64,000 nucleotides of DNA from Neoarius graeffei (Eukaryota > Chordata > Actinopteri > Siluriformes > Ariidae), in contig NC_083571.1 in the NCBI RefSeq assembly GCF_027579695.1, forward strand, positions 32,235,943 through 32,299,942. Direction: 5' to 3'. The position numbers were made by a program, and so were the translations under genes. Below the pieces are notes generated by a model, which did not search any database, had not been told where the DNA came from, and worked only from the letters and a program-made list of their open reading frames with translations. Positions 18,401-43,300 of the stretch are shown piece by piece. Each line of letters begins with the position of its first letter. Within the stretch, counting starts at the first letter, position 1.

Positions 18401-21400
18401 CTTCTCTCTTTTCCCTCTCTCGCCTCCCTCCCTCTCTCCCTTCTCTCTCTTCCCTTTCTCTCTCTCCCCCTCCCTTCTGTCTTCCCTTCTCTCCCTCTCT
18501 CTTCCCTCAGTCTTCCCTTCTCCCTCCTCCCCCTCGTCTTTCCCTCCCTCCCCCTCTCTTCTCTCCCTCCTCCCCCTCGTCTCTCCCTCCTCCCCCTCGT
18601 CTCTCCCTCCTCCCCCTCGTCTTTCCCTCCCTCCCCCTCTCTTCTCTCCCTCCTCCCCCTCGTCTTTCTCTCCCTCCCTCTTCCCTCCCTTGCCTCTCTC
18701 TCTCCCTCCCCCTTCCCCTCTCTCTTCTCTCCCCCCTCTCTTCTCTCCCTTCTCTCCCTCTCTCTTCCCTCAGTCTTCCCTTCTCCCTCTTCCTCTCTCC
18801 CCCCTACTCTTCCCTCCCTATCCCCCCTCCTTTTTCTCTCTTCCTTTATTTCTTCCATCTCTCCTGCTCCGCCCCTCCCCTTTCTCACACACTTATCAGG
18901 TTGGGTGGAATTTCTCAACCTGGCAACTTTCTAAACAAACGCGTGCGCACACAGTCTTTCAGTAACGTATGCAGATTTGTCCCTGTGACCTACCTCTAAT
19001 CCAACAACCACACAAAGACGACTGTTTATTTTGTGTGTGTGTACACACATCTGTCTCCATGTGTGTGTTCATTTGTTCCAAATTCATACTGGTAACAGTA
19101 AAAACTTTCCTGTGTGTAATGGATTAACCTTACAGCCCAGCTGAAGACTGGCATGGTATGTGGCAGCTACATGCTGTATGTATTTTTGCCAAAACAAAAT
19201 CTTTATTATAACTTGAAGAGGAACGACACGACACTCTCACAGTTCATTGTTAACATGGTGTGCAGACAGTTGCTATGCAACAAGGAAACATTGACAGAGT
19301 ATAAGTGAGCTAGTGCCAGAATTCAGCTCGCTCAGAGATTGGAACAAGGAGACCGAATGGAAACATTTCTCTCAGGTGTGTGTGTGAATTACTGAGAGAA
19401 AAAGGCTCCGTCTGAGCAGAGTTACTTTGAGCGTTTGTTCGAGCGCGTATGTGGAGGCAGAGGACGGTCAAAGATTCACTGCTTTTCAGTCCAAGTGTCA
19501 CAAGGTATTAATTTCAGGATATCTCACACAGTTGCGTGCATTTATGAGTCTCGTCACTGCATACAGATGGGGTGTGTGTGTGTCCTGTGACCCACTGACT
19601 CTCGGTCGCCGAGCACAAGCATATCAGAGACCACCCTCTGGCCTGCTAATCCGTTTAGATCGGACTGATAGAGGCACACAAAAGCGAGGTAATTAATAGG
19701 GCTACAGAGCTTTATGTATGGAGCATCAGACTGTGTGTGTAAGAGAGGGAGGGTGGGTGGGTGGGTGGGTGGGGGGCGAGCAGAGGGAGCTTTTTGTTCC
19801 CTCGCTCTCTTCTTCCACCTTTGAGGCCAAGCGCAGTAACAGGAGCTCAAGGTCAAGGGAAGGGGGAGGAGAGCGTGTGTGTCCGTCCCCCACTGGCCAA
19901 TTTGCATGAGAGATGAGCGAGAAAGTGGCGATGTGTTACAGAAACACAGGTCCATCTCCTGCTCCGTGTTTCTTCACACGTCTCTACACGAGTATACCTT
20001 TTTTTAAAAATATGAGAGAATGTAATGTTCACATTTGTGGCCAGGGGGCACTCTACAGTCGCATGTGGGTTTCCTTTCATGACCAAAAAAAAAAGTCGTA
20101 ACCCGAATATGTGGTAGAGAAATTATTTCTTTAGTGGGTTTGGTGTCCCCCCCCCCCCCCCAAAAGAAAAAGTTCCTCAGGCATTTCCGCAAATGACTCC
20201 GCGTTCATTAAAGGTGCTCTTCGTACTTTAGCTTTGTTAGCATTAGCCTGGGCCCGCACATCCTAAGCGTGACGCAACATGAGGGCCTGCTGCGAGCTTA
20301 GTCTGGCCAGGCAAGCTATCTACAGCTCTTCCAAGCTCCCGAAAAATCGGGAACCAATCAACTTTGAGCATCTCCAACGGCCCTGGGTAGAGGCGTGTTC
20401 AAGGCAGTGACATAGTAGAACTGCGACTGGAAGCCATAGATTGTTTACAGAATCTATGCTGGAAGCGCTTCATTCACTAGAAACATTACGAACATGGAGC
20501 AAGTTCTCATTGAAAACGGAGCAGAGAGCAGCCCTGGAGGTATTTATTGAAAGGAAGGACGTTTTCGCCTTGCTCCTGATCGGCTTCGGTAAGAGTTTAA
20601 TCTACCAGTTAGCCCCGTCGCGTCACATACGTCAGAGGAAAGAGTGATGTGATTGGTTTAAGCTTCGTCACAGCCTTTTCTGGCTTCGACCAGTAGCAAA
20701 CCGAGGCATTTCAGGGAGGCGGGTCAACCACAGGCTCTGGGAAACGGTTGGGCTTAATATCTTGGCCAGACCAATAGCTCGTAGAGCTTTGCAGTCGCGT
20801 TAGCCAGACTATGTTAGCATAGCTGTCGCCGGGATGTCAGATTCTGAAAGCTGAAAACATTAAATTGTGTCAGTCCATATAAAAACTAGCCCTCACTCAT
20901 AAATAAAGCAATATTAGCGTATAATTAAACATACTGTAGCTTTAAAGCTTTAAAGGTGATGTTTAAAAGGGATTCTCATAACATAATCATGATTTCAAAG
21001 TAGGGCTGTGCAATATATCGAATATACTCGATATATCTCCGAAAATTCTGAGAGATGCATAAAATTATTATATCGTAACTATATAGAGTATTTTATGGTC
21101 ATCTGCCGACTTGCGTTTGTTTAAAACCTTTTCTGGTGGTTTTCTCCCTGTCCCTCAGGCAGTAACGTAAGAGGCTGCCAAAGGGTAAAAAAAAAAAAAC
21201 AATAACGTCATGCACTCGCCAACCAATCCCGGGTGACATCTCAGTGCTGAAAGGAACTTGCGGGAAGATTTTCTAGTTTCGGTTTACAGCGCTGACTCAG
21301 TTCGTGCAATCGCTGGTGTTGCATAGGCTCCCGTGTAAGCTCTGTCAATTTCGGCGACAAATTAAAAATGGAAGCGGACGAATTGGTTCCTAAAAGTCAG

Positions 21401-40300: not shown

Positions 40301-43300
40301 AAGCACATCTACGTAATACGTAAGCAAAAAAAAAAGCGCACTCTTCAAGTTTCCATTAGCCAACGCAGAATAGTGACGTTTGTCTCTTGTCGATGACGTG
40401 TAGGTCGCATGAATGCGACCTGTCCGGTCAGACTGCAGTCACGTGAAAATATTGGATATGCATCGGAATTAGGACCACATATCCAAGCGGCCTGGGTCGC
40501 ATGTGAAAAAAATCGGATCTGTGTCGTTCAGATGGTCAATAACAAATCGGATACAGGTCGCATATGGGCAAAAAAAATCGGATATGGGTCGTTTCAGGGT
40601 GCAGTCTGAACGTAGTCTAAGAAGCAGCTTTGAAAGTGGATTTTTTTTTCGCAGGTGACACTGAGACAGTCTCAGTAATCACTTGGGTCACGTCACGTCC
40701 CTAGACTGTATAAAATCAAGATCAGTGATTTCTCCAATGAAAGGAGGCGGTTCTTCTGGGGAACGCACGCACTCATGGCTTTACCTAGAACCCATGTTTC
40801 AGTTTTCTGAAAGGATTAAAGATTCGCTTCATTTTAAATGTTTGCCGAAAACGAACCACATCGCAGCCTACAAAAACTCGCCGTCCGACCTGCAGAAGCA
40901 TATTGAGGTATATAAATGTTTTATTCCAAGAGAAAGCTCGCAATGAAGTTGTCCGTGCTTTTAGAGTTAGCGATAATGTTGCGATAGCTATGCAGCCTGG
41001 TTAGTCAAATGACTTTCTATGGATTTTCCCGTCAAGTTGCCGTCGCCTTGTCCACGGCTAACATTAACATATAGCTAGTTAACTTGGACACTGTTAGTTA
41101 GCGTGTAAAAACGGAGTTACGCTAACAGGAATAACGTTAACTTATCTGAAGTCCTTTTAGAAATATGTTTTAGCATAATCTTGCCAAATAAACAGAATAT
41201 ACAAATCTCTTTTCTAGTAACTTTAGCTACCCAGTATGATTTGGAGTTTGAAGAGTTTGCTAGCATGTCGGATGGAGCTTCAGCTCTACAGGTTCTACAA
41301 GCTAGTCAGTAAATCCAGTCGGTTGCTTCAGAGGCGTTAGGTTTTGTAAGTGTAGTGTCAATAATACAACAATGTGTTGGCAGAAAATGTACTTTTAATA
41401 CTTAAGTATTTTTAAAAGCCAGTACTTCAGTGCTTTAACTTAAGTAAAAATGTGACTGGACAGCTTTCACTTGTATCAGCCTAACATTTGACCAGTGGGA
41501 TCTGAACTTTGACTTCAGTAATGAAGTCGGGTAGCCTAGTAAACTAGACCCACCCGCCTAGCGGCCAAAAATATATTTGCCTACGAGTGGGTCTAGCCTC
41601 GCACCATATAAACAAAACACCCCGGGCATCAAATCGTGCCCGCCAATCACAACGCAAGGTTTCTTTGGGCGGGCTTTTGCAGGAGTGACGACAAGGCTGC
41701 GCGACGCTGGAGAAAGCACAACAGGAAAGATGGCTACGGCTAGTGAACAGCGCGCGTTTGACTCCGCTTTGGAATCAGTTTTAGAAGAATTAGACTTGGA
41801 GTTTTCGTTGAAACATGAGCAGGAAGAGGCTCTCCGCTCATTCCTTTTCAAGAAGGACGTTTTCGCTGTTTTGCCGACCGGCTATGGCAAAAGTCTGATC
41901 TACCAGCTGGCTCCGCTCGTAGCCAAAAGGATGGGGCCAGTTTGTGCAGTACGAAGAATTAATAAACAGCTTTGAAATATTACTTTTTGATTGTTTCTTA
42001 TTTTCCCGTTATTTTAAAGGGAAATTATTTCACCAAACACCACTAAATAAAAATAAAAACTCAAACAGTTTAAGCAAACCCTTGAAAAACACTTGGAAAA
42101 AAAAAAGTGTATGTTAAGTATATGGTACAGACTCCAAACTTGTGGTCATTATCTCCAAACTTCTTAATATCTAGAACCTGTTTATTAATTAATACGCATT
42201 TTGAAAAATTATTTCAAGGCCTCCCCCACTGCTTTCTGTCGCTCTGACTACGACACAGTTGCGCTGATTGGTCAGAGCGTTGGCCTATACGCACAGAGAC
42301 AGTTTGAAAGACAGCGGGTTGTTCCTCCCACACCCTTCGGAAAGGTCTACGAGCGAGGCCAGACTAAATATTCACATTTAGTCTGGCTTGCCAGGCTAAA
42401 AGTCGGGTACTTTGTCCACCTCTGGATGTCACAAATGTTACACCCCCCCCAAAAAAAGCGTTAAAAGTTTAAAAAGCATTGCCATCTCTGGTTCTGGTAT
42501 CTTTTTGACAATGTTCTGTTAATTTTTTTTTTCGTCTCATGTTTTAAATAGTTTTCTTCTTGTAGAATTTACTCATTTCTTAACAGATATACAATAAAGG
42601 GAGCACAAACTTTTGCAATCAAGGGAATCCTGGAATAATGAATATCAGCTGTGCAGAATGTTTCTTGAATTTAATACCGGGGGCGGGGGGAGCATTTCAT
42701 GCGCGTCACAGGTTTTAGTGTGTGTGCGTACCAGTTTGTATCTCTGTGCAGGGACGGCGCTGATGTCGATGGGACTCCTCTCCACCACATCGATGAACTT
42801 GACCTCAGGAAGACCCACAGCACACATCACATGGGCCCATCTGGAACACATCACACGTTAACGCCTACATGACACACACTCATTCACACGTGACCGGCGT
42901 GTGTGGAAAATTCCGGTGGAGTAAAGCTGCCAAGAGCGGTGTTTAACCGTTTATAAAAATGCGTCTGATGTGACGAGAGCGCTCACCTGTTGTCTGTCGT
43001 TCTTTTCAACGCACCGCCTCTCAAGTTACATAAACAGCATTCCTGTGAAAAACACACACACACACACACACGATTAAAAACTCTTAACAATCCAAGCTAG
43101 AACATCTCTTTGAGTGATCACGTACAGCGGATAGATCTCCACACGAACAGCGGTCACATGTCCACTCCTGGGTGACATCATGAGCAGCGACGCCATAGCA
43201 ACCTGGACAGTAGGCGGGAAAAGATTAAAAACAAACAAACCAAACCTCACCTGGCAGCACTTATTTTATACCTATATGTTGAGAACGGAAATATTTCTCA

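Follow-up and report, generated by a model that had tools for sequence, protein, structure and literature searches.

The window, by which we mean the whole stretch of 64,000 nucleotides analysed here from Neoarius graeffei (contig NC_083571.1), carries exons of a JmjN/JmjC lysine demethylase, presumably KDM4-like, on the reverse strand at 51475-54652. A Tc1/mariner-type transposase, also on the reverse strand (34415-35494), occupies a 359-residue stop-to-stop frame with DDE_3 and Tc3-type HTH domains and may be nearly intact. Three further Tc1-type transposase copies, at 25086-26025 and 49426-50183 on the forward strand and at 44432-45316 on the reverse strand, are broken and look much alike by eye. 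The demethylase gene, the Tc1-type elements and the style of the repeats suggest a fish as host. Two forward-strand fragments, one THAP-like and just under the Pfam cut-off (17370-17753), the other a BED zinc finger (21296-21613), possibly derive from other transposons. The window also contains two copies of one repeat (13209-13580 and 52635-53000) whose open frames match by eye, a tandem array of 115 copies of a 24-bp unit that is open in several frames (6107-8806), and a long TCTCTG-rich tandem array that starts at 56849 and reaches the window end at 64000.

Three related insertions with ends of the form TAG...CTA can be read directly, all on the forward strand: E1 (20244-20811), E2 (37684-37769) and E3 (41532-42398). 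An earlier note on this DNA had reported three such insertions, all of which are present. Its left ends are those given here, and its right ends lie one base further to the right than those under TAG...CTA (20811, 37769 and 42398). With these symmetrical ends, comparison of the flanks gives 9-bp target duplications that agree at all nine positions in E1 (TGTTAGCAT at both 20235-20243 and 20812-20820) and at eight of nine in E2 (GTGCCCCAT at 37675-37683 and GTGCCTCAT at 37770-37778, together GTGCCYCAT) and E3 (GAAGTCGGG at 41523-41531 and AAAGTCGGG at 42399-42407, together RAAGTCGGG). When lengths from 7 to 11 were compared with the same ends, those of 7, 8, 10 and 11 bp gave at most six matches, and 8 bp gave 1, 2 and 4 in E1, E2 and E3, respectively. 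If positions are treated as independent, the probability of three such 9-bp matches is roughly 8e-14, or roughly 1.7e-6 when 275 choices of length and ends are allowed for each copy. Lengthening the right end by one base (T in E1, G in E2, A in E3) yields 8-bp duplications with 8/8, 7/8 and 8/8 matches; the extra base completes the 9-bp duplication in E1 and E2 and is its mismatch in E3. We prefer 9 bp because the ends then become symmetrical and because the base that follows the last 20 identical bases differs between E2 (G) and E3 (A), as flanking DNA should. A duplication of 8 bp, the length given previously, is less likely and probably wrong.

E1 (568 bp, with ends TAGCCTGGG...CCAGACTA) and E3 (867 bp) read as internally deleted copies, on the basis of direct reading, flanks and alignment. 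E2, recognized by its similarity to the ends of E3, is a derivative with both ends only, whose first base is C rather than T. The earlier note had likewise described it as carrying the two ends only, with 87 bp instead of the 86 bp found here. The kinship of E2 with E3 follows from the alignment of both ends in order (left, 48 nt at 75%, E 2.7e-5; right, 29 nt at 90%, E 5.3e-4). That of E1 with E3 follows from a shared frame and from their right parts. The frame, which the earlier note had also seen, is real: a search of the window aligns 116 nt of it with 67% identity (E 3.6e-11), and 26 of 38 residues are identical in translation. Between the two copies, 10/38 first, 10/39 second and 18/39 third codon positions differ (one-sided P 0.024), which points mildly to coding constraint. 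The right parts align with a score of 24.0, compared with 12.6 +/- 2.0 in simple shuffles, none of which (0/300) reached this value; the score of the left non-coding parts, 15.5, was reached by 73 of 300 shuffles, so that their similarity is not significant. Within single copies, the two ends of E3 match at 14 of their first 18 bases and those of E1 agree at just 8 of 20.

The right-end sequence TAGTCTGGCTTGCCAGGCTA is nearly palindromic and occurs exactly in E2 (37750-37769) and in E3 (42379-42398). Allowing up to three mismatches, the window holds three matches, against a mean of 0.04 in 100 shuffles; the remaining match, 20299-20318, lies inside E1. At this place, near the left end of E1, lies a second terminus-like stretch, TTAGTCTGGCCAGGCAAGCTA (20298-20318), which may be a nested or rearranged end. 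The 20-base terminus had no exact match in viral contigs. A profile of the right ends of E1, E2 and E3 placed those three above the inclusion threshold, and one of the left ends of E2 and E3 matched those two only and not the left end of E1, the E-values being circular in both cases. With an end pattern picked post hoc, when the elements were already known, a strict scan (one mismatch in the ends, 8/9 duplication) returned E1 and E3 only, with a total of one match in 30 Markov resamples, and a loose scan (up to two mismatches, 8/9 duplication) returned five sites in the window, with 0 to 8 in each of 30 resamples. The loose scan did no better than chance, and we discarded its two other sites, 3243-3615 and 36744-37538.

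The right terminal region of E3 (42358-42398, forward strand) combines a perfect 12-nt inverted repeat with the near-palindromic terminus. In DNA folding, the E3 right end (42346-42398) had a z of -4.5 and its left end a z of -3.4, with 0 of 200 shuffles as stable in either case; E2 (74/200 shuffles as stable) and the E1 right end (24/200) do not stand out. A stable single-strand hairpin can thus form, as predicted by folding, at the right end of E3 and also at the left, and none of our readings rests on it.

E3 carries an 81-aa open frame (41730-41975, forward strand) whose ATG, at 41730, has the context GGAAAGATGG and lies 198 nt inside the left end; the frame stops soon after the Walker A motif. 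It matches the NCBIfam model recQ_fam (E 1.7e-9) and Pfam DEAD (E 5.7e-6; 26.6 bits with a cut-off of 26), and in a library of solved proteins only, its best chains are helicase Q5 (E 4.7e-4) and BLM (E 8.4e-4). A match to DpdF (E 4.5e-5) is weaker than those to RecQ models. The corresponding fragment of E1 (20502-20617, forward strand) is degraded; it matches recQ_fam over 20435-20620 (E 2.3e-4) and, below the cut-off, Pfam DEAD over 20495-20605 (E 0.085). The NCBIfam scores fall well short of the curated cut-offs, which is unsurprising when 44 (E3) and 38 (E1) residues are aligned to a model of 470 positions. Judged by these matches, the protein piece is the N-terminal part of a RecQ-family helicase, in agreement with the earlier note, which had also recognized the Walker A motif as degraded in one copy: in E1, PTG is altered and GKS is kept. 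E3 has kept about 70 residues of helicase, and E1 a smaller number.

Measured from the left end, the lysine codon of Walker A is at 347 nt in E1 and at 357 nt in E3. Because of this near-equal position, the helicase start looks like something that the element inherited and not like the product of separate host captures. Given that the two copies have diverged to 67%, this suggests that the element stably carries the start of the RecQ gene, and one may reasonably infer an autonomous relative that encodes a helicase of RecQ type. Upstream of the frame, E3 contains TATAAA (41607), CCAAT (41643) and GGGCGG (41667), so that 41607-41672 on the forward strand could be promoter-like, short motifs of this kind being liable to arise by chance. 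A CCAAT lies 110 nt from the left end in E1 and 111 nt in E3, with a further CCAAT in E1 at 20771; TATAAA and GGGCGG were sought in E1 and neither was found.

Searches with the helicase piece gave little beyond the window. In viral contigs, 37 stretches matched the protein pattern and none was confirmed, and tblastn against phages gave no match. Among genome contigs, 1 of 206 was confirmed, with 58% identity over 26 residues around Walker A in an archaeal MAG; we rejected it as a relative and took it for a generic helicase motif.

The three insertions probably derive from cut-and-paste DNA transposons of AcademH type, as non-autonomous copies with internal deletions, because a RecQ helicase is found here together with a 9-bp duplication. 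In the portions of the sources available, a RecQ helicase is named in Academ (PMC3627910), and target duplications are given as 9 or 10 bp for AcademH and 3 or 4 bp for AcademX, lengths ascribed to helicase and nuclease (PMC10045372). We equate the helicase of AcademH with this RecQ helicase by combining the two papers, and the link to a named group is drawn through the 9-bp reading. A named home for the inferred helicase-encoding relative, for which the earlier note knew of no fixed superfamily assignment, thus probably exists. All three copies have 9-bp duplications under symmetrical ends, and two of the three retain a RecQ-type helicase, as an N-terminal fragment only. Several observations count against AcademH: no transposase, the core feature of Academ, was recognized in E1, E2 or E3, the 8-bp parse with its longer right end fits the flanks as well, little of the helicase is left, and the left part of E1 has no significant similarity to that of E3 and is missed by the profile of the E2 and E3 left ends. 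As far as the accessible text goes, Academ copies were counted in zebrafish, medaka and stickleback and are absent from tetraodon (PMC4746887), and DEAD and Helicase_C domains of fungi have been ascribed to AcademH, KolobokH or Helitron (PMC10799480).

Under the AcademH reading, the autonomous element would encode a RecQ-type helicase, read rightward, about 200 bp inside its left end, and presumably an Academ DDE transposase further in. The TAGYCTGG-type ends would be recognized by the transposase, perhaps with the aid of the helicase, leading to excision, and joining to a staggered cut would produce the 9-bp duplications; the helicase could serve, for example, in unwinding the ends or in helping gap repair. 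Internal deletions, for instance through incomplete gap repair after excision, would give rise to short copies, E1 and E3 keeping the helicase start and E2 the ends only, and all three may have been moved in trans. E1 and E3 would represent different families of one group, because their shared frame has only 67% nucleotide identity. This scheme joins what is read from the DNA (the ends, the duplications, the position of the RecQ fragment and the short copies without the rest of the helicase) to a superfamily that we infer.

The copies could also be deletion derivatives of another DNA transposon superfamily that carries a RecQ helicase (hAT, MULE, Merlin, P, Zisupton or Kolobok, for example), a possibility that we regard as unlikely. 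The lack of a recognized transposase in the three copies would suit it, as would the duplications of MULE and Merlin, which are about 9 bp long. Moreover, accessory helicases recur, a RecQ helicase being reported in KolobokH and in a red-alga Kolobok (PMC9587614), and the 8-bp parse would match Zisupton (8 bp) and hAT (usually 8 bp; PMC12730594). However, the parts of these papers available to us describe KolobokH from fungi only and give TTAA as the Kolobok duplication (PMC9587614), which is absent from E1-E3 (TGTTAGCAT, GTGCCYCAT and RAAGTCGGG), and the duplications under symmetrical ends are 9 bp long rather than the 8 bp of Zisupton and most hAT elements (PMC12730594). More doubtful again is a scenario in which the transposase of the autonomous partner is not an Academ one and another vertebrate superfamily took up a RecQ helicase independently and kept it in at least two families.

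Independent capture of parts of a host RECQ gene at every site, or the insertion of processed copies there, is hardly credible. The closest relatives in the library of solved proteins are indeed cellular RecQ helicases, Q5 and BLM, but E1 and E3 hold a single common stretch, in an identical frame and at a near-equal distance from the left end, diverged to 67%, and the fragments sit within transposon ends flanked by duplications. It is likewise very unlikely that E2 is unrelated and owes its ends to a chance match. The loose scan, which found no more sites than the Markov resamples, would allow this, but both ends of E2 align in order to those of E3, evidence that the scan does not use. Fungal subtelomeric RecQ genes were also considered and, from the part of their description available, are another thing.

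Few DNA transposons are known to encode helicases. Beyond the position of the RecQ start and the 9-bp reading that points to a named group, E1-E3 are ordinary dead remnants, most likely further examples of the AcademH group already described. The defining AcademH paper, which we know through its title in reference lists, is reportedly Kojima 2020 (Mob DNA 11:15). The literature searched, part of it accessible in excerpt, contained no description of a RecQ-carrying fish element, and a fish AcademH may well be in print.

Compared with known systems, as far as their published descriptions were available, the insertions resemble Zisupton and hAT in having duplications of similar length, but differ in the preferred 9 bp as against 8 bp, or usually 8 bp. 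With KolobokH they share a RecQ helicase encoded by a DDE transposon, whereas Kolobok makes TTAA duplications and KolobokH is described from fungi only. AcademX belongs to the same superfamily as AcademH, but has duplications of 3 or 4 bp that are linked to a nuclease and not to a helicase. In contrast to AcademH itself, the copies found here are all deleted, and their likeness to this group is drawn from published descriptions. The likeness to AcademH consists of the 9-bp duplications of the preferred parse, an SF2 helicase that the element carries and a host within the range of animals given in the title of the defining paper.
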